Source: a virus
Strand: one strand, 5' to 3'
Length of the DNA: 64,000 nucleotides
IMG/VR virus record: IMGVR_UViG_3300027736_000043
Location: 1-64,000 of that record
Below, one piece after another: positions 47,964-64,000 of this stretch. The notes beneath the pieces were generated by a model. The model searched no databases. It saw nothing but the letters and a program-made list of their open reading frames with translations, and was not told where the DNA came from. How positions within the stretch are numbered: position 1 is the stretch's first letter; each line of letters opens with the position of its first letter. A program made the position numbers and the translations under genes.

Positions 47964-50900
47964 ATGGCATATACAATCAATCTAACTAACGGGTCAATCT
48001 TTGCTACCATACCAGATGGCACCGTTAACACTGCTAGTAGCATGACACTGGTGGGCAAAAACTATGCCGGCTACGGTGAATTTTTAGACGAAAACTTTAT
48101 TCACCTGCTGGAAAATGCTTCAAATACCACTGCACCCGGATCACCTCTTACTGGGCAACTATGGTGGGACAGTACTAATGCATTGATGAAAGTATATAAC
48201 GGTACTGCATTCAAAGTCATGACTGGGTCTACTTCGGCAGCCACAGCACCTAGCAATGTTATCACTGGTGATTTGTGGTGGGATACTACCAACGCACAAT
48301 TGAAAGTTTATAACGGCGCATCTTGGACTGTGGTTGGGCCAGCTTATACTTCTGCTGAAGGAACTGCTGGTGCAATTCCTGAAACAATCACTGACTCAGG
48401 AGCCACACCACACTACGTAACCAGCTTGTATGTAAACAATACTCGCGTGGCCATTGTGAGCAAAGATTCTAGTTTTACTCCCTCCGCTCCTACTGTTACC
48501 ACATTCCCTACCATATACAACGGTATCACTTTGTACAACACTGGTTCTCCAGTGTATGCAGGATCAGCAACCAATGCACAATTGTTAGATAATTTAGATA
48601 GCACCGACTTCATGCGTGCTACTGCTAACACATCAACCACTGGTACACTGGCAGTACTAAACAATAGCGGACTTACTGTGGGTGCTGCAAATGTGTTTGC
48701 AGTCAATACCACTACTACAGATGCCAACATCAAAAGCAACATCTCCAATGGTAATTTGGTAATACAAGCCAACGTCGGCGGCATCACATACAATGTGGCA
48801 AGAGCTGTGGGCAGCACTGGTGTATTTGCAGTATCAAACGCTATGACTGCAGGTACCACTGTATCAGCTGTGGGCAATGTAACTGGCGGTAATATCACCA
48901 CAGCAGGACAAGTTTCTGCTACTGCTAATATTAGCGGTGGCAATGTTATTTCTGCAGCGGCAGTATCTGGTGTTTCTCTAGTTTCTTCTGGCAACGTTGA
49001 CAGCGGTAACTTGCGTACCAGCGGATTGGTCAGTTCAGCAGGCAACATCACCTCAGCAGCCAACGTAGCAGGTACATATTTTATTGGTAATGGTTCAGCA
49101 TTGACTGGATTGAGTTTGGGTGTTAGTGTTACCAAGTTTGTCAACGGCACTAGTGAAGGTAATGTTGGCGCCAGTGGCGGCAATATCAACTTCAATGTGG
49201 GCGGCGTAAGTAACGTGGTTGTAATTGATACCACTACCTTGTACACCAATGTGGTAAGCGCACAAAGCATTACCAAATCTGGAACCAATGCTGTTGGTAA
49301 TATTGGATCTAGCACACAGTTTTTTAACACAGTATTTGGTAATATTTACAATGGTACTATTGTCAGTGTAGCAGGCAATATAACTGGCAGTAACATTAAT
49401 ACTGGTGGATTGATCAGTGCAACTGGCAACGTTATTGGTGGTAATATCAATGGTGGGGCGAATGTCAATGCTACCAGTTTGACTGGTACTGTAGTAAGTG
49501 TGAGTGGTAATATTACTGCTGGTAACGTATCAGGTGGCGGTACTGTTACTGCTACCAGTCTAACAGGTACTACTGTCAGTGTTAGTGGTAATATTACTAG
49601 TGGTAACTTGAATGCTGCCGGATTAAGTCTCAGTTCAAATGTGGTCAGTGCATTGAATTCAACTTCGGCTATCACAACCAGTGCAAACATAACTGGTGGT
49701 AATATACTAACAAGTGGGTTAATAAGTGCTGCTGGCAATATCACAGGCGGCAATGTGCTGGGCGGTGCCAATGTCAATGCAACCACACACACAGGTACCA
49801 CAGTTAGTGTAAGTGCAAATATTACAGGTGGTAACATATTAACAGGTGGGTTGATATCTGCAGGTGCTAACATCTTGACAGGTGGACAAATAAGTGCCAC
49901 AGGTAATATTACTACCAGCGGTGTTTTCAATGGAACTTTTGCAGGTAACATATCAGGCAATCTTACAGTGCCTGGTTCTAACACACAAGTGTTGTACAAC
50001 AGCACTGGCAATGCAGGCGCAAGTGCAGGGTTCACTTTCAATAGTACTACTAATGCAGTGGTAATAACTGGCAACGTAACTAGTGGCAACTTGTTGACTG
50101 GCGGATTGATTTCAGCAACTGGCGGCATTACTGGCGGCAGTTTTACAACTGGCACCACAGTAATTGCAACAGGTAATATCACAGGTGGCAACTTATTGAC
50201 TGCTGGATTGATCAGTGCAACTGGCGGCATCACCGGCGGTAGTTTTGCAACTGGTACCACAGCAAGTGCAGCTGGCAACATCACAGGTGGTAACATCTTA
50301 ACAGGTGGATTGATCAGTGCAACTGGCAACATCACAGCAGGCAATGTATTAGGTGGAGCCAATGTTAATGCAACTACTCATACAGGTACCACAGTTAGTG
50401 TAACTGGTAATATCACTGGCGGCAACTTGAATGCTGCAGGACTGAGCCTGAGTTCAAATGTGGTCAGTGCATTGGTATCTGCCGCCAACATCACTACTAG
50501 TGCTAATATTTCTGGTAATTATGTACTGGGTAATGGTGCTTTACTAACTGGTGTTATTACCAGTGTGGCCAATATCAACAGCGGCACCAGCAATGTCACA
50601 GTGGTCAGTTCAGGCGGCAATATCACAGTGGGTGTGGCCGGAACTGGTAATGTGGCTGTTTTTGCGTCATCTGGTGAATACGTAACCGGTGTAGTAAGTG
50701 CTAGTGGCAATATCACTGGCGGTAACTTATTAACTGCTGGATTGATCAGTGCCACAGGTAATATTACTACCAGTGGCGTTTTTAATGGAACTTTTGCAGG
50801 TAACATATCAGGCAATCTTACAGTGCCTGGTTCTAACACACAAGTGTTGTACAACAGCAATGGTAATGCAGGTGCAAGTGCAGGATTTACTTTCAATAGT

Positions 50901-51662
50901 ACTAGCAATGCAGCAGTGGTAACTGGCAACATCACAGGTGGCAACTTATTGACTGCCGGATTGATCTCAGCAACTGGCAGCATTACCGGCGGTAGTTTTG
51001 CAACTGGCACCACAGCAAGTGCAGCTGGCAACATCACAGGTGGCAACTTGCGTACCGGCGGATTGATCTCAGCAACCGGCGACATCACCGCCGGTAGTTT
51101 TACAACCGGTACCACAGTAATTGCAACAGGTAACATCACAGGTGGCAACTTAATTACTGGCGGTTTGGTCAGCACTACCAGTATCACTAAAACTGGCAGC
51201 AATGCTGTTGGTAATATTGGCAGTTCAAGCAACTATTTCAATCAAGTTTTTGCCACAGCTACCACAGCACTATACGCTGACGTTGCTGAACGCTTTGCTG
51301 CTGATGCTGTGCTAGAACCAGGAACAGTGGTTGAATTGGGCGGATCAAAAGAAATTACCCGTGCCATAACTGACCTAAGTGAAAATGTATTTGGGGTTAT
51401 CAGCACCAGACCAGCTTATACAATGAATGGCGGTGCAGGCGAAGATGCAACTCATCCAAAAGTTGCCATGACTGGTCGCGTTCCAGTCAACGTTATTGGT
51501 ATAATACGCAAAGGCGATCGATTGGTTTCTGCAGGAGCAGGACTAGCAAGAGCAGCCCAACCGGGCGAAGCTACTGCATTCAACGTAATTGGACGCAGTT
51601 TGGTAGATAAAAATACTACAGAACAAGGTACAGTCGAAGCCATTGTGACCATTAACAATTAA
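47964..51662 (+). CDS. Long tail fibre protein with Gly-rich repeats and G2-peptidase-like C-terminus
   Basis: 1232 residues. The conserved head (NLTNGSIFATIPDGTVNTAS, LVGKNYAGYGEFLDENFIHL, GQLWWDSTNALMKVYNG, the last found twice) attaches the fibre to the virion. Residues about 300-1080 are a beta-prism/helix-like array of GNITGGNLLTAGLISATG units with several long duplications. The tail (NAVGNIGSSSNYFNQVFATA, YADVAERFAADAVLEPGTVV, GVISTRPAYTMNG, AMTGRVPVNVIGIIRKGD) resembles the autoproteolytic/chaperone C-terminal domain of pre-neck appendage and tail fibre proteins (peptidase G2 type). It is likely the host-recognition fibre shaft and is expressed from a perfect late promoter. Long antisense ORFs opposite are composition artefacts. 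Confidence 0.85.
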   Translation: MAYTINLTNGSIFATIPDGTVNTASSMTLVGKNYAGYGEFLDENFIHLLENASNTTAPGSPLTGQLWWDSTNALMKVYNGTAFKVMTGSTSAATAPSNVITGDLWWDTTNAQLKVYNGASWTVVGPAYTSAEGTAGAIPETITDSGATPHYVTSLYVNNTRVAIVSKDSSFTPSAPTVTTFPTIYNGITLYNTGSPVYAGSATNAQLLDNLDSTDFMRATANTSTTGTLAVLNNSGLTVGAANVFAVNTTTTDANIKSNISNGNLVIQANVGGITYNVARAVGSTGVFAVSNAMTAGTTVSAVGNVTGGNITTAGQVSATANISGGNVISAAAVSGVSLVSSGNVDSGNLRTSGLVSSAGNITSAANVAGTYFIGNGSALTGLSLGVSVTKFVNGTSEGNVGASGGNINFNVGGVSNVVVIDTTTLYTNVVSAQSITKSGTNAVGNIGSSTQFFNTVFGNIYNGTIVSVAGNITGSNINTGGLISATGNVIGGNINGGANVNATSLTGTVVSVSGNITAGNVSGGGTVTATSLTGTTVSVSGNITSGNLNAAGLSLSSNVVSALNSTSAITTSANITGGNILTSGLISAAGNITGGNVLGGANVNATTHTGTTVSVSANITGGNILTGGLISAGANILTGGQISATGNITTSGVFNGTFAGNISGNLTVPGSNTQVLYNSTGNAGASAGFTFNSTTNAVVITGNVTSGNLLTGGLISATGGITGGSFTTGTTVIATGNITGGNLLTAGLISATGGITGGSFATGTTASAAGNITGGNILTGGLISATGNITAGNVLGGANVNATTHTGTTVSVTGNITGGNLNAAGLSLSSNVVSALVSAANITTSANISGNYVLGNGALLTGVITSVANINSGTSNVTVVSSGGNITVGVAGTGNVAVFASSGEYVTGVVSASGNITGGNLLTAGLISATGNITTSGVFNGTFAGNISGNLTVPGSNTQVLYNSNGNAGASAGFTFNSTSNAAVVTGNITGGNLLTAGLISATGSITGGSFATGTTASAAGNITGGNLRTGGLISATGDITAGSFTTGTTVIATGNITGGNLITGGLVSTTSITKTGSNAVGNIGSSSNYFNQVFATATTALYADVAERFAADAVLEPGTVVELGGSKEITRAITDLSENVFGVISTRPAYTMNGGAGEDATHPKVAMTGRVPVNVIGIIRKGDRLVSAGAGLARAAQPGEATAFNVIGRSLVDKNTTEQGTVEAIVTINN
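49896..50075 (+). repeat. 180-bp internal duplication in tail fibre, copy 1
   Basis: Encodes GNITTSGVFNGTFAGNISGN, then LTVPGSNTQVLYNS and AGASAGFTFNST. It is nearly identical to copy 2 at 50751-50930, 855 bp downstream, with most differences clustered in the last third. Confidence 0.9.
50751..50930 (+). repeat. 180-bp internal duplication in tail fibre, copy 2
   Basis: The same 60-residue module as 49896-50075, so the fibre gene contains a duplicated block with an 855-bp period. Shorter GGTAACNT-type Gly-Asn repeats fill the interval. Confidence 0.9.
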
Positions 51663-51676
51663 ACAGGAATAGAACA

Positions 51677-52672
51677 ATGACTTATTCATCAGGTGGCTTG
51701 ATCCAATCAGCAGACTACAACGGGTTTGTTGGTCCCACTGCCAGTGGCGGCACAGCCAATGCAAACATAAATGATATTTGGGGTGCGGGGTCTGGAGATA
51801 AAGGGTATGGGCAAACTGCGGTGTCTAACTCCAGTGTTGCTGGTACCATTACTGCTACCCAATGGGCCAGCTTGGTCAACACGTTGACCGCGTTGGGCAC
51901 TCAAACCAATACTACCATCACGGCAAGATCAGCACCAACCGCCGGCAGCACAATTGGTATTTTATCAGCACTCAACACAGACCTTACGGCTGTTACTACC
52001 AACAGAGCTAACGCAGTTGCACAAGGCGCACAATATACATCATGGACTGGAACCAACAGTAAAATTGCTGCTACATCAGGTGCTGCTTGGACCATTACAT
52101 TTACAAATACTGTGACATTTGCAAGTGCAGCCGCTGCTCGTTATTTTTTCAATGGAGGCGGGACTATTTCCTTGCTACCTTCCAAAACTAGTACAGGTGC
52201 AACCGGTGATCCTCCCTGGAATGCTATGGCCACAGCCGCTGGTACAATCGTGTTTAGTGGTATAGCGGCCAGCCATACCATTGCAGGAACTGCATATACC
52301 GGAACTACCAAAATTGGCGGATCAGGAATCAATACCACACTAAGTACAGCTACAGGATTTTATGCATTGACTGCAGGTGCTGCCGCTACTATTATTTTCA
52401 AACAATTTTCACCCACTGCTCCGTATACTACTGACTTTATACAACACAGTGTGGCACTGGATGCCACTTCGTCAATACTTACATTTACCACGCTTTGGTC
52501 GGCCAACGATTCGGGACCGGGTAATCCTGACCCAATCACAGGCGGAACAGCAGCATCGGGTGCCACTCCTGGTACCGCAGCCTGTACCATTTGTACTTAT
52601 AAACCTCCTAGTTCCACTTACCTGACTACTGCAAGTTGGGGAACTCCAACGGTGGCAGCTACCACAGCTTAA
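51677..52672 (+). CDS. Ala/Thr/Gly-rich virion structural protein, last gene of late operon
   Basis: 331 residues, 14 bp after the tail fibre gene with AGGAA ribosome site. The head MTYSSGGLIQSADYNGFVGP and NINDIWGAGSGDKGYGQTAV is a pattern seen in small fibre or tip proteins of aquatic phages. The middle is a predicted beta-sandwich (WTITFTNTVTFASAAAARYF, FFNGGGTISLLPS). The content of small residues is very high. A tail-fibre tip or adhesin role is inferred from position. It is followed at once by a strong terminator. Confidence 0.65.
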   Translation: MTYSSGGLIQSADYNGFVGPTASGGTANANINDIWGAGSGDKGYGQTAVSNSSVAGTITATQWASLVNTLTALGTQTNTTITARSAPTAGSTIGILSALNTDLTAVTTNRANAVAQGAQYTSWTGTNSKIAATSGAAWTITFTNTVTFASAAAARYFFNGGGTISLLPSKTSTGATGDPPWNAMATAAGTIVFSGIAASHTIAGTAYTGTTKIGGSGINTTLSTATGFYALTAGAAATIIFKQFSPTAPYTTDFIQHSVALDATSSILTFTTLWSANDSGPGNPDPITGGTAASGATPGTAACTICTYKPPSSTYLTTASWGTPTVAATTA

Positions 52673-52675
52673 CCA

Positions 52676-52695
52676 AAAGGGCCAATTGGCCCTTT
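52676..52695 (+). terminator. Rho-independent-type terminator ending the late tail operon
   Basis: AAAGGGCC...GGCCCTTT is a perfect 20-bp palindrome (8-bp stem with AATT loop) 4 bp after the stop at 52672, followed by ACTTTTG. Its right arm overlaps the -35 element of the next promoter. Confidence 0.75.
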
Positions 52696-52721
52696 ACTTT
52701 TGATCACATATTGTGTATAAT
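52693..52721 (+). promoter_or_regulatory. Sigma70-like promoter of the accessory operon
   Basis: TTTACT at 52693-52698 and TATAAT at 52716-52721 are separated by 17 bp, the optimal spacing. The -10 is a perfect consensus. The predicted start about 7 bp downstream coincides with ATG 52728, so this message too may be leaderless. This differs from the TAAATA boxes of the structural genes and suggests earlier expression. Confidence 0.6.
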
Positions 52722-52727
52722 GTACAC

Positions 52728-53033
52728 ATGGATACAGAAGATTTAATTGCTCATGCTCGATCTAGATTCAATCACGAATCAGCTAGACGACTACTCAAAG
52801 AAAAATATGAGGCTCGAATGTTGTTTGCTCATGCAGGTGGCATGTGGCGCGCTGATCCTGAACTGCTGGTACTATTGGCCACAGTACCTCCTGGTGATGC
52901 AGTAATACTAGATTTGTACGAAAATCCTATCCAGGTCAACCCAGAACTACTACGTGGCCTGGCCATGCAACGATGGCAAGAACAAATGAATGCATGGTTG
53001 ATAGAACACGAACAACTGAACCAGCAACGATGA
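52728..53033 (+). CDS. Small hypothetical protein heading the accessory operon
   Basis: 101 residues from ATG 52728. A GTG five codons upstream lies inside the TATAAT box and is unlikely. The sequence is helical and charged (DLIAHARSRFNHESARRLLK, EKYEARMLFAHAGGMWRA, PELLRGLAMQRWQEQMNAWL). No family is recognised. The stop overlaps the glycosyltransferase start as ATGA. Confidence 0.65.
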   Translation: MDTEDLIAHARSRFNHESARRLLKEKYEARMLFAHAGGMWRADPELLVLLATVPPGDAVILDLYENPIQVNPELLRGLAMQRWQEQMNAWLIEHEQLNQQR

Positions 53034-53875
53034 CCACCGGTGCATTGATATTTGCATTTAACAATGAAAAAACAGACTACGTGGCCCTGGCAGCCTGGTC
53101 TGCAGCCAATATACACCGGCATCTTGAAATTCCAGTGGCAGTGGTCACAGACAACAAACATCATCCTGAACTGGCAGCATTTGATCAAGTTATCTTTGCT
53201 GAACCTTCTGCAGGCGGAACAAGGAATTTTGAAGATTATGCAGCCACAGTGACTTGGCACAATGCCGGTAGGCCTGATGCATACAATCTCACACCATGGG
53301 ATAATACTTTATTATTAGATGCAGACTACATAGTGGCCAGCGATCAATTGCGGCATACTTGCACTAATGGTAGAGATTTACAAGCCTACTCAAGATCAAC
53401 AGATGTGTGTAACAATCAAAATTTAGATCGGTTTGGTAATCCCCCAATGAATATGTTTTGGGCCACAGTAGTGCAATTTCGTAAATGTACTCGGGCACAA
53501 TATGTTTTTGATTGCATGAATATGATCAAACAAAATTGGCAACATTATAGAGATATCTATCACATTCACAGCAGCACATATCGCAATGACTACTCGCTAA
53601 GTATAGCAATAAACATTGTGAATGGTCATGTGCCGCACACCAACAACAATTCAATTGCTGGAGTATTAGTAAATGTGTATCCTAGCAATACGCTAACACA
53701 AATACATGAAGATTGTTATCGTGTGGCATGGACTGGTTCAAACGGAAAAAAACATCATGTGGAGTTAACAAACCAAGATCTACATGCCATGGGCAAAAGA
53801 GATTTAGAGGTCATAGTTGAAAATCATACAAGAACAAGGCTATCTAATAACAGCCTGGAACTCAGCCACAGTTGA
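53030..53875 (+). CDS. Glycosyltransferase-like protein (GT-A fold)
   Basis: 281 residues from ATG 53030 (ATGA overlap). The N-terminus GALIFAFNNEKTDYVALAAW, then LEIPVAVVTDN, is a Rossmann-like nucleotide-sugar fold, and NTLLLDADYIVASD has the D-x-D metal/nucleotide-sugar motif (DAD). Later segments FWATVVQFRKCTRAQYVFDC and the HSSTYRNDYSLSIAINIVNG region fit acceptor-side helices. Sugar donor and acceptor are unknown. It is the first of three such proteins in this operon. A longer frame starting at 52973 would overlap the upstream gene by 61 bp and is rejected. Confidence 0.7.
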   Translation: MTTGALIFAFNNEKTDYVALAAWSAANIHRHLEIPVAVVTDNKHHPELAAFDQVIFAEPSAGGTRNFEDYAATVTWHNAGRPDAYNLTPWDNTLLLDADYIVASDQLRHTCTNGRDLQAYSRSTDVCNNQNLDRFGNPPMNMFWATVVQFRKCTRAQYVFDCMNMIKQNWQHYRDIYHIHSSTYRNDYSLSIAINIVNGHVPHTNNNSIAGVLVNVYPSNTLTQIHEDCYRVAWTGSNGKKHHVELTNQDLHAMGKRDLEVIVENHTRTRLSNNSLELSHS

Positions 53876-54590
53876 TTATATAAACTGTGCAAGATCATTA
53901 GTTCAAACATTAAAACACTGGCATCCTGATGCCAAAGTGTGTTTGGTCACGGATAGAGATATTGTTGATCCGGTGTTTGATTACATACATGTGATCACAC
54001 GTACCAATCTTGACAATCCTTATGCTGATGATTGGCAAATATTCTATCAATCTCCATTTCGTGAAACTATCAAACTAGAAGCAGACATGTGGATTACCAG
54101 TTCAATTGATCACTGGTGGAATTTATTTCGCAAACGTGATCTAGTAATCAGCACAGGTTGTAGAGATTGGCAAGATCGACCCAGCACAGCAAGACACTAT
54201 CGTAAAATATTTGATGCAAACAATTTGCCCGATGTGTACAATGCCATCACATACTGGAGATTGAGTACAATAGCAAAAGAATTTTTTGATTTGGTACACA
54301 GTATATTTGAAAACTGGACTGAATATCGCAAGCTATTGAAATTTCCCGACGAAACGCCGTCAACAGATTTGGTCTATGCAATGGCAGCGCAGATCATTGG
54401 TCCCGAACTGGTAACATTGCCATTTACCACATATCCTAAAATAGTTCATATGAAACGACATCATGCTGGCACACAAACAGAAAATTGGAAAAAAGAACTA
54501 GTTTGGGAATGGGATCACGGTAGTTTACGTGTACAGACAGTAGCACAATCAGGAGCGTTTCATTATTATGTCAAACCAACCTTTAACTGA
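53817..54590 (+). CDS. Glycosyltransferase-like protein (TTG start)
   Basis: 257 residues. The only sensible start is TTG 53817, since TAG is the codon before it; AGAGG lies 6 bp upstream. It overlaps the previous gene by 59 bp. The fold resembles the previous protein: GYLITAWNSATVDYINCARS, DAKVCLVTDRD, and IKLEADMWITSSIDHWWNLF, where EAD replaces D-x-D. HMKRHHAG near the end may be the C-terminal metal-ligand His region. It is probably a GT-A enzyme acting with its neighbours; specificity unknown. Confidence 0.65.
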   Translation: MKIIQEQGYLITAWNSATVDYINCARSLVQTLKHWHPDAKVCLVTDRDIVDPVFDYIHVITRTNLDNPYADDWQIFYQSPFRETIKLEADMWITSSIDHWWNLFRKRDLVISTGCRDWQDRPSTARHYRKIFDANNLPDVYNAITYWRLSTIAKEFFDLVHSIFENWTEYRKLLKFPDETPSTDLVYAMAAQIIGPELVTLPFTTYPKIVHMKRHHAGTQTENWKKELVWEWDHGSLRVQTVAQSGAFHYYVKPTFN

Positions 54591-54918
54591 AGAAGAATTT
54601 TGGAGTATCTTGGCAGACATACCGGAGCCAAAACCAATTTTCTTTAGATTGTATCATGATGATCGTGGGCATGTATTATTCTACAGCATGGAGGATGTTC
54701 CAGGTACATACATCGAAATTGATGCTGAAACTTTTGCGTTATCACCTACAAATGTAAGAGTACGCAATGGCCAACTGGTTGAAGTTACATGGGTATCTAG
54801 TGAAAAACTCCAACCAATGGAAACTGGCACGTCTTGCTACCCCACTGACATAACTGTAGTGGTTTTGCAAAACGATCCGCACATTAAATGGAGCAAAAAA
54901 ACATATGAACAAAATTGA
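54568..54918 (+). CDS. Hypothetical small protein
   Basis: 116 residues, overlapping the previous gene by 23 bp and the next by 14 bp. An acidic helix (LTEEEFWSILADIPEPKPI) precedes a beta-rich body (FFRLYHDDRGHVLFYSMED, TYIEIDAETFALSPTNVRVR, EVTWVSSEKLQP). No catalytic motif is seen. It may be an accessory subunit of the flanking glycosyltransferases; this is context only. Confidence 0.6.
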   Translation: MSNQPLTEEEFWSILADIPEPKPIFFRLYHDDRGHVLFYSMEDVPGTYIEIDAETFALSPTNVRVRNGQLVEVTWVSSEKLQPMETGTSCYPTDITVVVLQNDPHIKWSKKTYEQN

Positions 54919-55828
54919 CACAGCAGATTTAGACTGCATTTATCTAACCTACGACGAACCACAACGAGAAGAATTCTGGGTCAAGATCAAAAACATGATT
55001 CCTTGGGCCAAACGTGTGGATGGCGTCAAAGGGTCAGACGCAGCACACAAAGCTGCCGCTGCTGCCAGTGATACCGAACGTTTTATTCTAGTAGACGGTG
55101 ATAACTTACCATCTGCAGATTTCTTCAACAAAACATTAGAATTCCCCACAGCTGAATACGAACAAGCAGTGTTTAGATGGCGTGCTAGAAATCATGTAAA
55201 TGGCCTAATGTATGGCAATGGAGGTATTAGTAGTTGGACACGTGAATTTGCAAATGCCATGCGTACACACGAAGCCACAGATGGGCGTACAGAAACACAA
55301 GTTGAGTTTTGTTTTGATCCGTTGTACTGGGCCATGCATGATTGCTACAGCACAACTTACCCAGCGCAGTCACCGTTTCATGCATGGCGTGCAGGATTCC
55401 GAGAAGGTGTAAAGATGTGCCTAAACAAAGGTGCCCGACCCACAGTAGAAGAATTTAAAAATCAAGTGCTAAGAAATCTTGATCACCTGACCATATGGCA
55501 TAACATTGGATCTGACGTAGAAAACGGAGAATGGTGTATGGCCGGCGCAAGGCAAGGCACATACATGACCATGCTGACCAACTGGGACTATAAACTAGTA
55601 CAAGACTTTGATGCACTGGCTGAAATTTGGGCTACAGTAAAAGATGGACAACCAAGAATACTGAGCAATCAGTTGGGTCCAGAGATTGGAACACAGTTGG
55701 ATCTGCCAATGGCCATATTGGAGTCAGAGCAAAGTGCATTCTTCAAATATCACTATCGATCAAACTGGCACAATCGTGGTGCTATGGTTCGGGAGATGGA
55801 TGTAATACGTCAGCAAGAAGGTTGGTAA
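54905..55828 (+). CDS. Glycosyltransferase-like protein (GT2-type, DGDN motif)
   Basis: 307 residues. CIYLTYDEPQREEFWVKIKN is the opening strand-helix, and RFILVDGDNLPSADFFNKTL has the GT2-like D-x-D element (DGD). GLMYGNGGISSWTREFANAM recalls the acceptor-site loop of GT2 enzymes. The C-terminus contains NLDHLTIWHNIGSDVENGEW. Similar proteins occur in phage genomes and LPS clusters. It overlaps the sulfotransferase start (TAATG). Confidence 0.65.
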   Translation: MNKIDTADLDCIYLTYDEPQREEFWVKIKNMIPWAKRVDGVKGSDAAHKAAAAASDTERFILVDGDNLPSADFFNKTLEFPTAEYEQAVFRWRARNHVNGLMYGNGGISSWTREFANAMRTHEATDGRTETQVEFCFDPLYWAMHDCYSTTYPAQSPFHAWRAGFREGVKMCLNKGARPTVEEFKNQVLRNLDHLTIWHNIGSDVENGEWCMAGARQGTYMTMLTNWDYKLVQDFDALAEIWATVKDGQPRILSNQLGPEIGTQLDLPMAILESEQSAFFKYHYRSNWHNRGAMVREMDVIRQQEGW

Positions 55829-56466
55829 TGTATAAAATTATTACTGACTATGCCGGCCAAGAGAATAAAAATATTTTAATTATTGGATCTCCAAGATCGG
55901 GTACTCATGCATTGTCTACTGAACTTTCTAATTTCAGACACGGGAAAAATCTTGGAGAAATCTGTATGGTAGGGTATTGTACTAATTTTTGGGACGACAT
56001 TGATAAGTTATCTAGCAGTGCTAGATTAACCACAGCGCAAATTGTTCAGATGAGTCCAAAATTAACATTAGCTGAAAATGTAGATAAGATTAAACAAAAT
56101 AATATTATTGTTAATATTCGACGTCGAGACAAAGTTGCACAATTTGCCAGCTGGATTTATTTCAGAGTATCAGATCCAACTGGACTTTACGGGTGGCATA
56201 ATCATACAGTTAACAAAACAAAAATCAAACCAGATACTATTACAGCAACAGAGCATGACATCACTCAGTTTAAGTTAGAACAAATGTTAGATGATTATTT
56301 TTTACCTACTTTTAATTTGTGCTATGAAGATCTTACATTTACACAAACCACATATAAGAAAAATGAATTTGCATTTCCTCTGCAGCAAATATTTAAAAAT
56401 CTTGATTATGTAAAACAACAATTGGAATCTTGGCAGTACTCCTCAGAGCATTTTGGTAATGAATAA
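55828..56466 (+). CDS. Stf0-like sulfotransferase
   Basis: 212 residues from ATG 55828; a longer frame from 55627 overlaps the upstream gene by 200 bp and is rejected. NILIIGSPRSGTHALSTELS is the 5'-phosphosulfate loop (P-R-S-G-T), and VNIRRRDKVAQFASWIYFRV matches the 3'-phosphate-binding R-R-x-D-K-x-x-Q-x-x-S helix of Stf0-type enzymes. The family transfers sulfate from PAPS to carbohydrate hydroxyls. The substrate is unknown, but the neighbours suggest a glycan made or altered by the adjacent glycosyltransferases. It overlaps the next radical SAM gene by 8 bp. Confidence 0.8.
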   Translation: MYKIITDYAGQENKNILIIGSPRSGTHALSTELSNFRHGKNLGEICMVGYCTNFWDDIDKLSSSARLTTAQIVQMSPKLTLAENVDKIKQNNIIVNIRRRDKVAQFASWIYFRVSDPTGLYGWHNHTVNKTKIKPDTITATEHDITQFKLEQMLDDYFLPTFNLCYEDLTFTQTTYKKNEFAFPLQQIFKNLDYVKQQLESWQYSSEHFGNE

Positions 56467-57832
56467 CAAAAGTCAATTCTTAAGTTCGGCTGAACAAATG
56501 GCAGAAAATCTAGGTCCTGCTCTTTGTTTAGCCAAATGGAAACAAGTCAGTTTGCATTTGCCCACCGGGTTAAATAACAGTTGTTATCACCCACCTTTGC
56601 ACTCTATATCCGTTGAAGATATTGGTCGCAATCCAGCAGCACTACACAATACAGATCATAAAAAACAACAACGTAAGTTGATGTTGGCAGGCAAACGTCC
56701 GGCAGAGTGTCAGTATTGTTGGAACATGGAGGATCTAGGTAAACTCAGCGATCGACATTATAGATCAGGCGAGCCCTGGGCAGCCATAGATTTTGAAAAG
56801 ATAAAAAACTCAACTGGAGATGAACAAGATGTCGTACCGTCGTACGTGGAAGTCAATTTTAACAATGCCTGCAATCTTAAATGCAGCTATTGCAGCCCGC
56901 AGTTCAGCTCTAGCTGGCAACAAGAATCTGAACGTCATGGGGCATTTCCTACTTTGGTTCCTCATAACGCTCCTGAGCATTTTAGCGGCCATCGCAAGCC
57001 TATCCCTGCCCGTGATCACAACCCTTATGTAGAAGCATTTTGGGCCTGGTGGCCCAGTCTATATCCTGAACTCCGGCACTTCCGCATGACCGGCGGTGAG
57101 CCCTTGATGGATAAGAACACCTGTCGAGTGTTTGACTATGTATTAGCTCACCCAAAAAACGATCTGCACTTGGCAGTAACTTCAAACTTCAGTGTAGAGC
57201 CTGAGCTGTCTGACAAATACTTTGATTATGTAAAACGCCTATGCGATACTGATATTGAACACTTTATGCAGTATGTTAGTCTTGATTCGGGTATAGGACC
57301 GCAAGCAGAATACATCCGGCATGGATTGAATTTTGAACGATTGCAGAACAATGTAGAAACATATCTTCAAGACATTCCATATCGTAACAGTCTCACTTTT
57401 ATTGTGACCATGAACAATCTTTCAGTCACAGGGTTCTTGCCATTGATGAAATGGATTTTAGATCTGCGCCGCAGACATAGTAAAACATATCAACGTGTGT
57501 GGTTTGATACTCCTGTACTTAGACAACCTGCATGGCAAAGTCTACAAACACTGCCTGAGAGTTATGCTGCAAAACTAGAACAAGCACGGAACTTTATGTT
57601 GGAGAATTTAGAAACAGAGTCTGACTTGTTTCACGGATTTAAAGATTACGAAGTGCAACGCCTTGAGCGTGACATAGCCTGGATGCGATCAATGACAAAT
57701 GTAAATACCCAGACTCTAAGTGACTTTTATAGATTTTTTAACGAACATGATCGTAGACGAGGAACTGACTTTGAAAAGACATTTCCTGAAATGATCTCAT
57801 GGTGGAAACAATGTGAATACCATGCAAGATAA
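56459..57832 (+). CDS. N-twitch radical SAM protein, sub-type B
   Basis: 457 residues from ATG 56459. The N-terminal auxiliary motif is LCLAKWKQVSLHLPTG, then SCYHPPLHSI, then ECQYCWNME; the usual CC is replaced by C plus two His. The core has NNACNLKCSYCSPQFSSSW (C-x3-C-x2-C) and MTGGEPLMDKNT, followed by TSNFSVEP. The C-terminus ends with D-R-R-R-G-T-D-F-x-x-x-F-P, shared with 59310. The two sub-type B proteins are clear paralogues (NPAALHNT in both). The product and substrate are unknown. Confidence 0.88.
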   Translation: MNNKSQFLSSAEQMAENLGPALCLAKWKQVSLHLPTGLNNSCYHPPLHSISVEDIGRNPAALHNTDHKKQQRKLMLAGKRPAECQYCWNMEDLGKLSDRHYRSGEPWAAIDFEKIKNSTGDEQDVVPSYVEVNFNNACNLKCSYCSPQFSSSWQQESERHGAFPTLVPHNAPEHFSGHRKPIPARDHNPYVEAFWAWWPSLYPELRHFRMTGGEPLMDKNTCRVFDYVLAHPKNDLHLAVTSNFSVEPELSDKYFDYVKRLCDTDIEHFMQYVSLDSGIGPQAEYIRHGLNFERLQNNVETYLQDIPYRNSLTFIVTMNNLSVTGFLPLMKWILDLRRRHSKTYQRVWFDTPVLRQPAWQSLQTLPESYAAKLEQARNFMLENLETESDLFHGFKDYEVQRLERDIAWMRSMTNVNTQTLSDFYRFFNEHDRRRGTDFEKTFPEMISWWKQCEYHAR

Positions 57833-58208
57833 CCAAATAAGTATTGCCATGAATATTATATTTCCTATCATTGAGTTAATTGACCGATTGGCTATCGCAG
57901 AAATAAAGTTTTTAAAAACACAACTTAACCAACCAGAAGTTGATTGGTACAAACAACAGTTTGACAAATATAATTTTTCTAGTATTACATTACAGTATGA
58001 AGAATTGAAAGACATACACTTAAAAATATGGAATTTAGAATCAGACATCAGAATGGGAATGGAACATAAATTAGGTCTTGAAGAAGTAGGACTACGAGCA
58101 TTGGCCATACGCGACTGGAACCATAAACGTGTTGCATTAAAAAATCAAATTGCAGAAAAATTACATTGTAATGTAAGAGAAATTAAAAAAGATCACGCAA
58201 GTGAATAA
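57822..58208 (+). CDS. DUF6165-like small protein
   Basis: 128 residues from ATG 57822, overlapping the upstream stop by 11 bp. IIFPIIELIDRLAIAEIKFL, then QYEELKDIHLKIWNLESDIR, then ALAIRDWNHKRVALKNQIAE, matches the DUF6165 pattern (E-L-I-D-x-x-x-I-x-E-I-K, I-W-x-x-E-x-x-I-R). Family members occur beside glycosyltransferases in bacterial polysaccharide loci; function unknown. Predicted all-helical. Confidence 0.6.
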   Translation: MQDNQISIAMNIIFPIIELIDRLAIAEIKFLKTQLNQPEVDWYKQQFDKYNFSSITLQYEELKDIHLKIWNLESDIRMGMEHKLGLEEVGLRALAIRDWNHKRVALKNQIAEKLHCNVREIKKDHASE

Positions 58209-58213
58209 GATAC

Positions 58214-59347
58214 ATGATAGGTAATCACCGGATCATTGTAGATGAATGGGCCGAAGTCTGGGATCTTCTTAAACCTCATGCCGACGGCAGTTTTTGGCGC
58301 TGGAGCGATTTAACTCTTGATCCAGAAGCTGTATATATTGTTGGGCGTGTGGTGCTCAAAGAGAACTGGTATGCTATCACCGATTGGGCGCATCAACATC
58401 CAGGCAAAGTAGTATTTTCTAATCCTGCTGAAGGATCGCAGACTATACTATTACAACTAAATCGATTGATGATTTCTGAACAGGTAAAATCTGGCGAAAT
58501 ATTGTTGTTGACATCCGGCGATCTTGAATCAGGATGGGACTATTGCAAAACTGATTGCTACTTTTCTAACATAGTAGAGTATCTTGAAAACATCAGCGCA
58601 CACGAATCGTGGCCGCAGGTGTATCACAAAAAAAACAAGCCTTATGACTTCTTGTTCTTGAACGGACGATTAAGACCACATCGCAAATATATAATAGACC
58701 AATTACGCCAACAAAAATTACTAGATCGAGCATTGTGGACTAATTTAGGCGACAGTGTAGAAATGTCTTGGACTAGTACATTACTAACTAATTCTAACGA
58801 ACCTGTAAAATTATTGCCCGAACAGTATGAAATACCTCGCGCTATACCTAACATGATAGAATTACCAACTGGATTTGTCAAACATCACTTGTTTGGTAAC
58901 ACCTGGGGTGACGCTATAGTCAATCCTGCGGCGTATGTGGACACATCATTTTCATTGGTAACTGAAACTATATTTGATTATCCGCATACATTCCGCACAG
59001 AAAAAATTTGGAAACCCATGATCATGTGCCATCCATTTGTGGTCGCAGCCAATCGTGGCTATTACCGAGACTTACACAATGCAGGATTTCGAACATTTGG
59101 TGACCTAGTTGATGAATCATTTGACCAGATAGATGATCCTACTGATCGTGCTAACCGTGTGGTTGCAGTTGTTAAAGATATATGCTATAATGGTGCAGAG
59201 GCTTTCTTGCAAGCTGCCAGAAGTACATGTAAATACAATTATCAGCAGCTTCGTGACCATAACACACAACAACGAGCTGAGCTTCCGGTAAAATTGGCAC
59301 AATATATCAATGAACGATCTAGAATTTCGACAGCAAGTATTAGATAA
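58214..59347 (+). CDS. GT-B/exostosin-like glycosyltransferase candidate
   Basis: 377 residues. Notable segments are YDFLFLNGRLRPHRKYIIDQ near residue 145, then FSLVTETIFDYPHTFRTEKI near 255 and WKPMIMCHPFVVAANRGYYR, followed by GFRTFGDLVDESFDQIDDPT. The E-x-x-F-D-Y-P...F-R-T-E-K-I-W-K-P block is like the donor-binding half of GT-B enzymes (fucosyltransferase/exostosin type: S-T-E-K-x-x-x-P). It is common as an unannotated protein in aquatic T4-like phages. The end overlaps the next gene by 38 bp. Confidence 0.6.
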   Translation: MIGNHRIIVDEWAEVWDLLKPHADGSFWRWSDLTLDPEAVYIVGRVVLKENWYAITDWAHQHPGKVVFSNPAEGSQTILLQLNRLMISEQVKSGEILLLTSGDLESGWDYCKTDCYFSNIVEYLENISAHESWPQVYHKKNKPYDFLFLNGRLRPHRKYIIDQLRQQKLLDRALWTNLGDSVEMSWTSTLLTNSNEPVKLLPEQYEIPRAIPNMIELPTGFVKHHLFGNTWGDAIVNPAAYVDTSFSLVTETIFDYPHTFRTEKIWKPMIMCHPFVVAANRGYYRDLHNAGFRTFGDLVDESFDQIDDPTDRANRVVAVVKDICYNGAEAFLQAARSTCKYNYQQLRDHNTQQRAELPVKLAQYINERSRISTASIR

Positions 59348-60641
59348 AAAAAGCAAAAGTTTCTGTGCAGCCAAATGGTACAATGCTACCATATGGTTAG
59401 GCAGCGGCATGACTACCAGTTGCCACCATCCTCCAGCACATGCCATAAATGTAGATGATATCAAACACAATCCTGCAGCATTGCATAACACTACCAAAAA
59501 GAAATTCGAACGTGATCAAATGCAGCATGGTGATCGACCAACGGGATGTGAATATTGTTGGAAGATTGAAGATATGGGTAGCGATGCCATAAGTGACCGT
59601 GTATACAAGAGTAAAATTTATCCTATAGAGGCATTGAATGAAGCATTTGAAACTCCTGCAGCTAATGACATTAGCTTACGAACCCTTGAAATTGCATTTG
59701 ACCGCACTTGTCAATTTGCTTGTAGCTATTGTAACCCTGCTTTTAGTAGCACTTGGGTTAACGATATACGAAAGAATGGACCTTATAACGGACTTGTTAG
59801 TGACGGTCGGAACCATTTTACTCACACTCACGATAGCAGCCAACTTTATAAATTCGGTCAAACTAATCCGTATGTGGAAGCATTCTTCCAATGGTGGGAA
59901 ACAGACCTCCATCGAACACTACAAGAACTAAGGATCACTGGTGGTGAACCATTGATGAGTGGCGAGACTTGGAAGCTGATTGGTTGGTTCCGAACCAATC
60001 CGGGTCGCAGCCAAACACGACTGGCCATCAATTCAAATCTAGGCACAGCAGTAGACTTAGATCGATTGCTAGACAGCATTGCAGGATTAGAAGTGGACAT
60101 ATACACATCAAACGAAAGCATAGGTCTACAAGCCGAATACATCAGAGATGGACTTGTATGGGATGACTGGGCCAACAATGTAGAACGATTGTTAGACAGC
60201 GGAAAATTTCGTAGCATACACATAATGAACACCATTAATGCGCTGTGCCTGGACACATTGGATCAGTTCTTAGAATGCATAATGAACTGGAAACTGGAAT
60301 ACGGTCGTGATGCTGTTAGTTTTACATTGAACATTTTACGATTTCCCAGTTTTCAATCTCCGCTGGTATTGCCTGATCATCTGCGTATGGTATATCGCCA
60401 ACGTCTGATCACATGGCTAGAGCACTGGTCTGACAGTGAATTTTTGCATGAACATGAACTCAACCATGTTCAACGTCTAATAGACTATTTGGACATTGTC
60501 AAGACACCGCACTCCGAAGCATTTGATCGGCCTCGGTTGTTAAACGACTTCAAACAATTCTATACTCAATACGATCAACGTCGTGGCAAAGACTTTGGTC
60601 TAGCATTTCCCACACTAAAACCCTGGTATGACTCACTATGA
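59310..60641 (+). CDS. N-twitch radical SAM protein, sub-type B (paralogue)
   Basis: 443 residues. Motifs match 56459: FCAAKWYNATIWLGSG, SCHHPPAHAI, GCEYCWKIED, then the core FDRTCQFACSYCNPAFSSTW (C-x3-C-x2-C), ITGGEPLMSGETW and AINSNLGT. The C-terminus has Y-D-Q-R-R-G-K-D-F-x-x-x-F-P. The start overlaps the previous gene by 38 bp; the N-terminus aligns with 56459, supporting this ATG. Its stop overlaps the next start by 4 bp. It may act with 56459 as a pair on similar substrates. Confidence 0.88.
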   Translation: MNDLEFRQQVLDKKSKSFCAAKWYNATIWLGSGMTTSCHHPPAHAINVDDIKHNPAALHNTTKKKFERDQMQHGDRPTGCEYCWKIEDMGSDAISDRVYKSKIYPIEALNEAFETPAANDISLRTLEIAFDRTCQFACSYCNPAFSSTWVNDIRKNGPYNGLVSDGRNHFTHTHDSSQLYKFGQTNPYVEAFFQWWETDLHRTLQELRITGGEPLMSGETWKLIGWFRTNPGRSQTRLAINSNLGTAVDLDRLLDSIAGLEVDIYTSNESIGLQAEYIRDGLVWDDWANNVERLLDSGKFRSIHIMNTINALCLDTLDQFLECIMNWKLEYGRDAVSFTLNILRFPSFQSPLVLPDHLRMVYRQRLITWLEHWSDSEFLHEHELNHVQRLIDYLDIVKTPHSEAFDRPRLLNDFKQFYTQYDQRRGKDFGLAFPTLKPWYDSL

Positions 60642-62344
60642 CATTGGAAGAAAAAATAATAGAATTAAAATCTCGTTACGATGTGTTGGCTGTAATTGAT
60701 CTTGATCCGTGGCACGACTTGCATGAACATGATAAAAAATCATGGATGAGAGAAACACTTGCACCTATACACCGAGACCCGTATCTTGATAATCAACGTA
60801 TTTTGTTCACAAGCTCACAAGGCGATGTGTACGCAGATGACCACAGTCCAGCAGGACAGTTGCTAACACAACTACAACGTAGATTAAACGAAATCGATAT
60901 ATCCAATTTTTTTGTTATCTTGCTGACTAACGACACCACCATGAGAGATGCATATCTTGCTCACTATCAAACATTTTCTGAAGATCCAGTTCCGATAACT
61001 GTCGAAGTGTATGCCAACAAGATCGCCAAACGTCGCACACAAGATAAAAAATCAACAGCAGGCAGTTATCAATATAAGAATCTAGATCCATTGAAGATTG
61101 ATATTAAGGATCTCACTGAGCAAGAACAATTTTTATTAACAAAAAGTTCTACGTTTTGTATGTATCCGTGGATACATTTCCATGCTTACCCTACTGGCTC
61201 GGCATATCCATGCTGCATGGCAGATATGCAGTTTCCCATTGGTGATATGAGAAAAAATACCATAAAAGAAATATGGAATCAAGCACCCATGACAGAAATA
61301 CGCAGACAAATGCTAAATGAACAACCAGTGTCGGCTTGCAATAGATGCTATGAACAAGAATCAATTGGAGTTGTTAGTGGAAGAATGAGTGCTAATAAAC
61401 ATCACGGACATCTTATTGACCGTACACACGAAACTAAACCTGATGGCACATTGGATCGATTTGAATTGACCTACTGGGATATAAGATTTTCAAACCTCTG
61501 TAATCTCAGTTGCCGTAGTTGCGGCCATATATTCTCAAGTTCGTGGTATCAAGATCAAGCCAAACTAGCAGGACCTGAATGGAAAAAAACACACAAAGTA
61601 TTGAATTATGCTGGTAGATTTGAAACTGATGCATGGGATCAGCTGGTAGAACATATTGAGCATGTGGAACAGATTTATTTTGCCGGCGGCGAACCATTAC
61701 TAATGGAAGAACACTATAAGATTCTTGACGAATTAGTTCAACAGAAAAAGTTTAATGTGAGATTGATTTACAATACCAATTTTACACACACACATCTCAA
61801 AGATAGAAGTGTGTTTGAATATTGGAAATTATTTGATTCAGTCAGCATAGGTGCCAGTCTCGACGGATCAGGACCTCATGGTGAATACATCCGTAAAGGA
61901 ACACAGTGGAATAAGATAGAACAAAATCGTCATGACATGATGCAGATTTGTCCAGATGTAGATTTTTATATTTCGCCTACTTTGAGCATAATGAATGCCT
62001 GGCACTTGCCGGACTTTCATCGCGATTGGGTTGCTCGCGGTTTTATAAAACCACAAGATCTCAATGTTAATATTCTACAAGATCCGCCGCACTACAGAAT
62101 TGATATTGCACCAATGAAATATAAACAACGATTGAGAATAAAATATCAAGAACACATAGAATGGTTAAAGAATCAAGATCCACTAGAGCGAGCCAGCGAA
62201 GGATTTAAATCAGCTATTAATTTTATGATGGCGTCAGACAACACACATCTCATTGACACATTCTGGCGTAAAACACACGAACTTGATGCTATACGGAATG
62301 AAAAACTATTAGATACAATTCCCGAACTTGAAGCGTTAACATGA
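60638..62344 (+). CDS. N-twitch radical SAM protein, sub-type A, with extra N-terminal domain
   Basis: 568 residues. Residues 1-155 are an extra domain (VLAVIDLDPWHDLHEHD, RILFTSSQGD, LTQLQRRLNEIDISNFFVIL) similar to the start of the 15858 protein. The auxiliary motif FCMYPWIHFHAYPTGSAYPC with a second C, then ACNRCYEQE, precedes the core SNLCNLSCRSCGHIFSSSW, IYFAGGEPLLMEEHY and IYNTNFTH. The C-terminus (THELDAIRNEKLLDTIPE) matches 15858 and 62341. The extra domain looks Rossmann-like (hydrophobic strands with D) and may bind the substrate or a partner. Confidence 0.88.
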   Translation: MTLEEKIIELKSRYDVLAVIDLDPWHDLHEHDKKSWMRETLAPIHRDPYLDNQRILFTSSQGDVYADDHSPAGQLLTQLQRRLNEIDISNFFVILLTNDTTMRDAYLAHYQTFSEDPVPITVEVYANKIAKRRTQDKKSTAGSYQYKNLDPLKIDIKDLTEQEQFLLTKSSTFCMYPWIHFHAYPTGSAYPCCMADMQFPIGDMRKNTIKEIWNQAPMTEIRRQMLNEQPVSACNRCYEQESIGVVSGRMSANKHHGHLIDRTHETKPDGTLDRFELTYWDIRFSNLCNLSCRSCGHIFSSSWYQDQAKLAGPEWKKTHKVLNYAGRFETDAWDQLVEHIEHVEQIYFAGGEPLLMEEHYKILDELVQQKKFNVRLIYNTNFTHTHLKDRSVFEYWKLFDSVSIGASLDGSGPHGEYIRKGTQWNKIEQNRHDMMQICPDVDFYISPTLSIMNAWHLPDFHRDWVARGFIKPQDLNVNILQDPPHYRIDIAPMKYKQRLRIKYQEHIEWLKNQDPLERASEGFKSAINFMMASDNTHLIDTFWRKTHELDAIRNEKLLDTIPELEALT

Positions 62345-63552
62345 AAATACCACATGACAAATTCTGTGTACTACCCTGGATTAGTATAGAAGCAAGTCCA
62401 ATTGGAACAGTACGGCCATGTTGTTTAGCTGATGACGAAATTGTAGACAACAACGGTGAAAAATTTCAATTGGCCACAGCTGACTTTGCTGATATACAAA
62501 ACAGCAATCACATGCGTGATTTGCGTGAAGATTTTTTAGCAGGAAAAAAACCTCAAACATGTCGTAAATGTTGGAATGAAGAACGATCAGGCCGCACAAG
62601 TAAACGTATGCATACACTGGATCGTCTTAAACATGTTCTTGACGAAGAGCATTGGACCAGCGATGCTAAATCATTAATGTTTCTGGATTTAAAACTGGGT
62701 AACATTTGTAATCTCAAATGCAGAATATGTGGGTCCTGGTCAAGTTCTCAATTTGCAAGCGAAGAAATTGCTTTTTTACCGCGCGAAGAACAAAAGAGTT
62801 CGCATGCTTACCAGATGTTACGTGCTGGAGCATGGCCAAAAGAAAATACACAGTTCTGGACTCAGATTGATTCAGTGTTGTCTGACATACGCTACATTGA
62901 ATTCACTGGCGGAGAGCCTTTTATGATTGAACAACATTTTGACATGTTGCAAGGTATTGTAGATCGTGGTATTGCACATCAAGTTGAAATACACTACAAC
63001 ACCAATGGCACACACTGGCCTGATCAAGGTCCGGATATTTGGAAACATTTTAAAACAGTAGAAGTGGCATTTAGTATAGACGATGTGGGTACTAGATTTG
63101 ATTATCAACGCACCAACGCAGACTGGGCAGTGGTCCTAGACAACATTACAAGTTTTCAATACTTGAAAGATCAAATGCCCAACTTACAATTGCAATGTTG
63201 TTCAACTGTGAACATATTCAATGTGCGTTACCTCGATGAGTTGGCTTGGTGGGCAGCATTGCAACGGTTTGACTTTGTGTATTGGAACATGATGCATGAC
63301 GCATGGTATTTTAGCATAGCCACTTTGCCAGACACAGCAAAAACACAAATTATCGCACACTTGGAATCAGCTGACATACCTGCTGAGTACAAACAAGAGT
63401 TTAACCGTATAATAGATTTCATGCGTAACGGAGCGTCTACTGATGGGTTTATGACTCGGATGAAGATTGCAGATCTAGATAGAAAACGCAACCAAGACTT
63501 GCGAGCAGTGGCCCCAGAATTTGCACAATTAATAGAATACACAGGCCCATGA
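62341..63552 (+). CDS. N-twitch radical SAM protein, sub-type A (compact)
   Basis: 403 residues, coupled to the previous gene by a 4-bp overlap. It lacks the extra N-terminal domain and opens with the auxiliary motif FCVLPWISIEASPIGTVRPC and a second C, then CRKCWNEERSG. The core is KLGNICNLKCRICGSWSSSQ, IEFTGGEPFMIEQHF and IHYNTNGTHWP. The C-terminus has ADLDRKRNQDLRAVAPEFA. It is the closest relative in the window of 15858. Its stop overlaps the next start by 4 bp. Confidence 0.9.
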   Translation: MKIPHDKFCVLPWISIEASPIGTVRPCCLADDEIVDNNGEKFQLATADFADIQNSNHMRDLREDFLAGKKPQTCRKCWNEERSGRTSKRMHTLDRLKHVLDEEHWTSDAKSLMFLDLKLGNICNLKCRICGSWSSSQFASEEIAFLPREEQKSSHAYQMLRAGAWPKENTQFWTQIDSVLSDIRYIEFTGGEPFMIEQHFDMLQGIVDRGIAHQVEIHYNTNGTHWPDQGPDIWKHFKTVEVAFSIDDVGTRFDYQRTNADWAVVLDNITSFQYLKDQMPNLQLQCCSTVNIFNVRYLDELAWWAALQRFDFVYWNMMHDAWYFSIATLPDTAKTQIIAHLESADIPAEYKQEFNRIIDFMRNGASTDGFMTRMKIADLDRKRNQDLRAVAPEFAQLIEYTGP

Positions 63553-64000
63553 ATTCAATTCAAATTGTATTTCCTAAAGGTGCCGGCGGCAGTTGGTTAG
63601 CTAGTTTGATTTGGAATCTACAAACTCAAAATTGGGCAATTCCAAAAATCAATACAAACTTTGATAACGAGCCAATGGGATCAGTATTACGAGATCATTA
63701 TCCATCTACACATTACGTAGATAGTGCAATTCCTAAATTGTTATTATCTACAAATCGATTTTTTAACGTGTATTTAAATCATGTAAAAAAAATTTTATAT
63801 CCAATACATCATGCAGACTCGGCAGCCGATGGTTCTAGAATTGTTCTGTTGGCTGATAAAATACAACCGTGGTTAACCGACCAGGATTTTAAAAATTTTT
63901 ACTGTACAAATATAGACTTAGAATATGAATTAATTTTTTCTGATGAGTTAAAATTTATTAAACGCTTGTATGAAATCTTAGATCAATATAAGATTTCATA
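63549..64000 (+). CDS. Sulfotransferase-like P-loop protein, truncated by window end
   Basis: The frame is open from ATG 63549 to the window end (150 residues seen), starting in an ATGA overlap with the radical SAM gene. The opening IQIVFPKGAGGSWLASLIWN has a G-x-G-G-S-W loop like the start of the 18349 protein (IIFNGGAYGTYLEWCL). This suggests a shared P-loop or sulfotransferase-type fold. In both loci the gene is near an N-twitch radical SAM gene of sub-type A. No 3'-phosphate motif is visible yet. Function inferred weakly. Confidence 0.55.
   Translation, partial: MNSIQIVFPKGAGGSWLASLIWNLQTQNWAIPKINTNFDNEPMGSVLRDHYPSTHYVDSAIPKLLLSTNRFFNVYLNHVKKILYPIHHADSAADGSRIVLLADKIQPWLTDQDFKNFYCTNIDLEYELIFSDELKFIKRLYEILDQYKIS

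Follow-up and report, generated by a model that had tools for sequence, protein, structure and literature searches.

A conserved glycosyltransferase and radical SAM cassette beside the tail-fibre genes of T4-like phages

What might a T4-like phage from a lake build with glycosyltransferases (GTs) and a series of radical S-adenosylmethionine (radical SAM, rSAM) enzymes encoded directly behind its tail fibre? The question is raised by the IMG/VR virus record IMGVR_UViG_3300027736_000043, a 65,902-bp contig of which bases 1-64000 (here, the window) end inside such a gene cassette. An earlier examination of the letters without database searches (hereafter the sequence-only reading) had described an accessory operon of GT-, sulfotransferase-, DUF6165- and radical SAM-like genes under its own promoter, with an order resembling a biosynthetic pathway. 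Its observation is largely confirmed and its interpretation partly supported: comparison with relatives separates an invariant core from variable slots, and points to a hard-wired pathway for chemical decoration, either of the phage fibres or of the surface of the infected cell. On the basis of portal, late sigma factor, SbcCD-like and baseplate genes in the window, we assign the phage to the T4-like myophages. The nearest matches to its portal and to the conserved protein p201 are those of Sinorhizobium phage Phosso and Agrobacterium phage Atu_ph07, which are jumbo phages of 470-490 kb, and the contigs that carry the cassette relatives reach 364 kb; the lineage comprises jumbo T4-like phages that are mostly freshwater, with marine relatives too.

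Gene order across the relatives

The core order in relatives is fibre, UP, ORF106, GTA1, GTA2, ORF116, GTA3, rSAM1, GTB1, rSAM2-rSAM5, p347 and an O-carbamoyltransferase. ORF106, GTA1, GTA2, ORF116, GTA3 and rSAM1 are present in all relatives with full flanks (48/48), GTB1, rSAM2, rSAM3 and rSAM4 in 47/48, and rSAM5 in 46/48. As these 48 loci had been retrieved by rSAM1, we used p201, a gene of the structural region, as a neutral query; in the loci with enough DNA, p201 was then followed by fibre (64/64), UP (59/59), ORF106 (57/57) and GTA3 (48/48). Scattering of the genes without co-occurrence was not seen, the core keeping its fixed order in every examined relative with enough sequence, and distances among core genes track those of p201 (Mantel r 0.32-0.71). 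The cassette appears to be a vertically kept core component, and the label 'accessory' is wrong because the core matches the invariance of the neighbouring structural genes. The fibre-UP-ORF106-GTA1-GTA2-x-GTA3-rSAM order is retained in marine contigs that had been binned into bacterial metagenome-assembled genomes (MAGs). MAG contigs carrying the phage cassette (L167, L168, L170, L192, L195, L196, L231 and L236) are probably misbinned phage DNA; the labels of cassette-bearing contigs include Pelagibacter, Betaproteobacteria, Rickettsiales, Rhodobacteraceae and Neomarinimicrobiota.

The one-directional gene run stands as first described, on the + strand from 52713 to the window end and then on to 65902, every long gene from the ORF106 ATG at 52728 through the contig end lying on that strand. 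Structural genes are absent from the operon, as had been claimed, although fibre genes always lie directly upstream: the tail-fibre-like FIB (47964..51662, 1232 aa), a repeat-rich open reading frame (ORF) and candidate acceptor whose homologue follows p201 in relatives, and the Gly/Ala/Thr-rich UP331 (51677..52672), the last gene before the terminator. The operon opens with ORF106 (52728..53033), a small protein conserved along its whole length. GTA1 (53030..53875) is assigned a start at about 53030 because conservation begins there, which gives an ATGA overlap with ORF106, and its overlap of 50-60 bp with GTA2 (53817..54590) is taken as real because relatives have it also. There follow the small conserved protein ORF116 (54568..54918), GTA3 (54905..55828), rSAM1 (56453..57832), GTB1 (58214..59347), rSAM2 (59310..60641), rSAM3 (60638..62344) and rSAM4 (62341..63552). 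Extension past 64000 recovered a second GT-B, GTB2 (64244-65245 of the record; related to GTB1, 31%), and rSAM5 (65242-65902), which is cut by the contig end.

Non-core genes are confined to defined gaps (GTA3|rSAM1, rSAM3|rSAM4, rSAM4|rSAM5 and a few more). Across phages these slots contain epimerase, DegT, aminotransferase, UDP-sugar dehydrogenase, AMP-binding, APS-kinase-like and GDSL genes as well as extra GTs and rSAMs. In the window, the sequence comparison places STF (55828..56466), a DUF6165-like gene (57813..58208) and STF2 (63549..64256 of the record; 63549..64000 within the window) among such inserts, the content of which varies between phages. The gene order is therefore not one pathway in the way it had been read, although a pathway-like, co-directional operon that has its own promoter and joins sugar transfer to radical chemistry is supported. 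Of the two sulfotransferase-like genes, STF, first called Stf0-like, has a P-loop-like motif (GSPRSGT), and neither reaches a curated cut-off: Pfam and NCBIfam gave no sulfotransferase match for STF, and Pfam none for STF2. Homologues of STF occur in only a few of 80 relatives. The DUF6165 label is not upheld (12.9 bits against a Pfam gathering cut-off of 27), and this small protein, which has no relatives in viral contigs and is private to this phage, was rejected as a core step.

Promoter architecture and enzyme families

The terminator and the sigma70-like promoter that had been proposed are both present. An intrinsic terminator with an 8-bp stem (52676..52695, +) ends in a T-rich tail that overlaps, and in the window supplies, the -35 element of a TTTACT-17-TATAAT promoter (52693..52721, +), whose -10 element ends 6 nt before the ORF106 ATG. 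A promoter scan of this genome alone was at chance (39 found versus 38.6 expected), so that the promoter is supported only through its conservation: 55/60 distinct relatives have a -10 element (at least 5/6 positions) 5-7 nt before the ATG together with a -35 element (at least 4/6), and in 54/55 of these the spacing is 17 nt. The same geometry occurs at 0.6% of background ATGs and at 0-8 sites before other core genes. A TATAAT-type element lies just before the ORF106 ATG in four marine relatives and is lacking in two others, and the terminator hairpin recurs in most of the relatives displayed. By general promoter geometry, a transcript starting about 6 nt past the -10 element would begin on the ATG itself, and we thus predict a leaderless messenger RNA; a Shine-Dalgarno-like motif precedes ORF106 in 4/60 relatives versus the fibre gene in 54. 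The fibre gene has a T4-late-type TAAATA upstream in 57/57 distinct relatives (38 with the strict form TATAAATA), and strict TATAAATA was found before ORF106 in 0/60. With a leaderless message of the sigma70 type, host-type transcription would supply the enzymes ahead of late virion gene expression or independently of it, which is a clear prediction for expression. Positions 52676-52728 can also be described in their own right as a compact joint of terminator and leaderless promoter, kept across the lineage.

The radical SAM calls are borne out by profile. NF033640 (N_Twi_rSAM, NCBIfam; curated cut-off 170 bits) is exceeded by all four complete N-twitch enzymes of the cassette, that is, rSAM1 (E 1.7e-97, 327 bits), rSAM2 (E 1e-85, 288 bits), rSAM3 (E 2e-121, 406 bits; with an N-terminal extension of ~170 aa) and rSAM4 (E 6e-101, 338 bits), as well as by the partial rSAM5 (187 bits) and by rSAM6 (306 bits). 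In an alignment of five complete proteins of the window (rSAM1-4 and rSAM6), the CxxxCxxC motif (C120/C124/C127) and the N-terminal auxiliary-cluster residues C6/C24/C66/C69 are invariant, and the cysteines for both Fe-S clusters are accordingly intact at the level of sequence. Because rSAM1 (support 0.997), rSAM3 (1.0) and rSAM4 (1.0) form separate phage clades in a tree (rSAM2 only at 0.52), the enzymes are better seen as old paralogues than as recent duplications. Large relatives contain 6-21 matches to NF033640 each (n=20, some below the cut-off), and close relatives of rSAM3 were not found in the sequenced-phage collection, the nearest being distant. We are aware of no tested function for this family, for which the cassette offers a natural system in which to search for substrates. 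Three further rSAM genes lie in the window on the - strand (11248-12108, 12561-14081 and 15861-17342), among SbcCD-like and late-sigma genes; that at 12561-14081 resembles B12-binding-type rSAMs.

The GT calls hold to differing extents. GTB1 is modelled with a GT-B fold, as had been proposed (AlphaFold predicted local distance difference test (pLDDT) score 91): nearly all of the top 50 rows against the PDB are GT-B-fold enzymes (Z 10.8-12.7, ~260-290 residues aligned), although with Foldseek alone neither GTB1 nor GTA3 had a significant match in the PDB. GTA1 and GTA2 are probably GT-A-like, given their conserved acidic motifs (LDADY and LEADM, respectively), and are related to one another (hhalign probability 98.6); GTA2 also matches phrog_1903 (E 1.2e-8), a family without assigned function. 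The third GT-A-like call is retained in weaker form, as GTA3 (conserved DGDN) is unrelated to GTA1 by profile comparison and its model (pLDDT 74) reaches Z 7.0 at best, tied with nucleotidyltransferases, which makes the predicted fold GT-A-compatible only. A search for the GT2-type domain PF13704 was negative in eight large contigs (0/8), and UP331, ORF106 and GTA3 had 0 matches in the sequenced-phage collection.

The window's own contig stops short of the end of the core, which is known from relatives. There, rSAM5 is followed by p347 (a gene of ~350 aa, 53 loci) and then by an O-carbamoyltransferase of ~490 aa that has both Carbam_trans_N and Carbam_trans_C domains and is related to the sugar O-carbamoyltransferase TobZ and to novobiocin carbamoyltransferase; exactly one Carbam_trans_C gene is present in each of 18 large contigs. 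In a 347-kb relative (L325:9279-14383), a gene group on the opposite strand faces the cassette end. One of its proteins resembles an amidinotransferase, to judge only by sequence, and genes similar to DegT and epimerase genes come further along.

Candidate acceptors

Four acceptors can be considered, namely a fibre protein, a host glycan intermediate, a metabolite and DNA. We tentatively place first a scenario in which a carbamoylated, radical-modified glycan is built stepwise on a cytosolic acceptor, with the adjacent repeat-rich fibre proteins a likelier target than host lipopolysaccharide (LPS). GTA1-3 and GTB1 would assemble a short glycan, distinct rSAMs would perform ordered radical reactions on this glycan or on residues of the acceptor, and the carbamoyltransferase would cap it; slot genes (for example, those for sulfotransferase-like proteins, epimerase, aminotransferase, UDP-sugar dehydrogenase and extra GTs or rSAMs) may diversify the structure between phages, which would then display decorated fibres. 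The initiating lipid-carrier transferase (Bac_transf, PF02397) and a Wzx-type flippase (PF01943) were found in 0/8 large contigs with working controls, although the contigs may be incomplete, and for this reason a lipid-linked glycan is probably not built from scratch. Together with the apparent lack of a thymidylate-synthase-family gene, this makes an acceptor that is already cytosolic the most likely one. The substrates of twitch/SPASM rSAMs are for the most part peptides or proteins, and it is this tendency, with the invariable adjacency of the fibre genes and the invariance of the core, that leads us to favour a fibre protein, as a matter of judgement. A more specific form of this scenario, which we consider possible but doubtful, is that at least five distinct N-twitch enzymes, the GTs and the carbamoyltransferase modify the repeats of the tail fibre in an ordered and in part non-glycan manner and are expressed before the fibre from a leaderless message. 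If true, this would be virion maturation based on radical chemistry, the first viral case as far as we know.

Several observations weigh against fibre decoration. An acceptor motif was not identified in the analysis, sugars or small molecules are the substrates of some known twitch/SPASM rSAMs, and the same rSAM classes occur in Bdellovibrionota arrays that have no adjoining fibre. Moreover, the cassette promoter differs in class from the late promoter of the fibre and would also suit an early remodelling of the host surface. The latter explanation follows closely, because the promoter is non-late and the sugar slots vary: enzymes made early would alter cytoplasmic LPS or capsule intermediates and so block superinfection or receptor rebinding, a proposal that we regard as credible but on balance unlikely. 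Either this kind of host-surface masking or virion decoration, which the sequence-only reading had listed together, may be the outcome. Similar gene sets have been read in this way in pelagimyophages and in cyanophages (PMC7029224, PMC7824862), and sugar-nucleotide genes do vary among the slots. However, the published argument rests on sporadic and polymorphic clusters (PMC7824862), whereas the present core is invariant; the transferase and flippase missing from the eight large contigs also count against host-surface remodelling, though the host could supply both, and the constant adjacency of the fibre genes would need a separate reason.

Improbable, by our estimate, is a diffusible small molecule or modified peptide (for example, an antibiotic, signal or toxin) made during infection by the rSAMs, GTs and carbamoyltransferase. 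The carbamoyltransferase has relatives in antibiotic pathways, some slots contain AMP-binding and aminotransferase genes, and a jumbo-cyanophage cluster has been read likewise (PMC7824862), yet a scaffold-forming enzyme was not recognised in the core and the linkage to fibre genes would be left unexplained. ORF106 and ORF116 are unlike precursor peptides: neither shows a leader/core pattern (ORFs of <40-60 aa were not surveyed systematically), for which reason the peptide modification that had been suggested is not favoured, and tRNA modification, suggested alongside it, found no support in the analysis.

Radical SAM enzymes participate in some thymidine hypermodification pathways, and the best fold matches of GTB1, which are tied, include T4 beta-glucosyltransferase (Z 12.6), from which one might envision GTB1 acting on modified bases in DNA or RNA. 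We judge this very improbable, as many GT-B enzymes unrelated to it share that tie and a thymidylate-synthase-family hydroxymethylase (PF00303) was found in 0/8 large contigs with a working control, although these may be incomplete; a search for Tet/JBP (PF12851) was uninformative, its control being silent. Least probable of all is a loose set of morons without a common product, which would fit the slot genes that differ among phages and the private DUF6165-like gene but is already contradicted by the fixed core order, near-universal retention and single conserved promoter.

Counterparts in phages and bacteria

Parts of this arrangement are already known, namely fibre-side GT/rSAM cassettes, 12 rSAM genes in one T4-like genome, and cyanophage clusters with carbamoyltransferases (PMC7029224, PMC5332604, PMC7824862). 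In T4-like pelagimyophages, tail-fibre genes of a hypervariable host-recognition region have GT and radical SAM cassettes next to them, much as here, although the freshwater pelagimyophages of that study are without rSAM and LPS genes (PMC7029224); the difference is that their region is hypervariable, whereas in the present cassette the backbone is invariant and the slots alone vary. The marine T4-like environmental viral genome TARA_ERS488813_N000010 shares the large radical SAM complement, its 12 genes being discussed as a supply of Fe-S clusters, and a conserved cassette, a promoter or a link to glycans is not described in the passage concerned (PMC5332604). Jumbo cyanophages P-SSM2 and S-SSM6a encode GTs, sugar enzymes and carbamoyltransferases, which have been interpreted as serving capsule decoration or metabolite synthesis; these clusters are sporadic and polymorphic, radical SAM enzymes are not named in the relevant section, and S-SSM6a has a halogenase and hydroxylases (PMC7824862). 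In the literature searched, we found no account of the invariant core and its slots, of the promoter or of how far the twitch rSAMs have expanded. Fibre-side GT/rSAM genes of T4-like phages had been viewed as host-surface genes that vary; in the present lineage the backbone is constant, with one order and one promoter design (five rSAM paralogues, three or four GTs and a carbamoyltransferase) across a large environmental lineage, and a list of odd genes becomes a defined pathway with few testable acceptors.

Phosso and Atu_ph07 have several overlapping rSAM genes on one strand at the same site, after a giant structural gene, p201 and fibre (L165:22626-30369; L164:23460-30198; with a cupin-domain gene in Phosso). 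Their other genes have no detectable homology to GTA1-3, GTB1, ORF106 or ORF116, and the core rSAM profiles miss their cassette. A series of 306-259-116-302 aa mimics GTA1-GTA2-ORF116-GTA3 in size, but homology was rejected; as neither hidden Markov model searches nor hhalign gave anything above chance, we regard the Phosso/Atu_ph07 cassette as a positional counterpart only. The giant gene has a counterpart in the window, a 5046-aa ORF (32024-47164) that corresponds to a virion structural protein of 4,450-4,560 aa in Atu_ph07/Phosso; some relatives of the group bear hair-like whiskers.

Four bacterial genomes (G021-G024), mostly Bdellovibrionota, have 4-16 NF033640 genes each above the cut-off. 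Tandem arrays in Bdellovibrionota include rSAM1- to rSAM4-like members (L172:6034-18030; L202:2919-12701), and the bacterial arrays adjoin housekeeping genes, for example those for ATP synthase and Obg (identified by sequence); they may hint at which host the phage has, or at an exchange of genes. The cyanobacterial host marker Photo_RC was found in 0/8 large phage contigs. Across bacterial loci the rSAM neighbours include GTs, carbamoyltransferases, DegT and one sulfotransferase. One Bdellovibrionota genome (L239) has flagellins next to a gene like rSAM1, a single locus that we did not use as evidence. In Vibrio phages K566/K567 (255 kb), several clustered rSAM genes lie near a PagP-like lipid A acylation gene (L324:6297-15758); these phages are another cultured system that holds relatives of the cassette enzymes.

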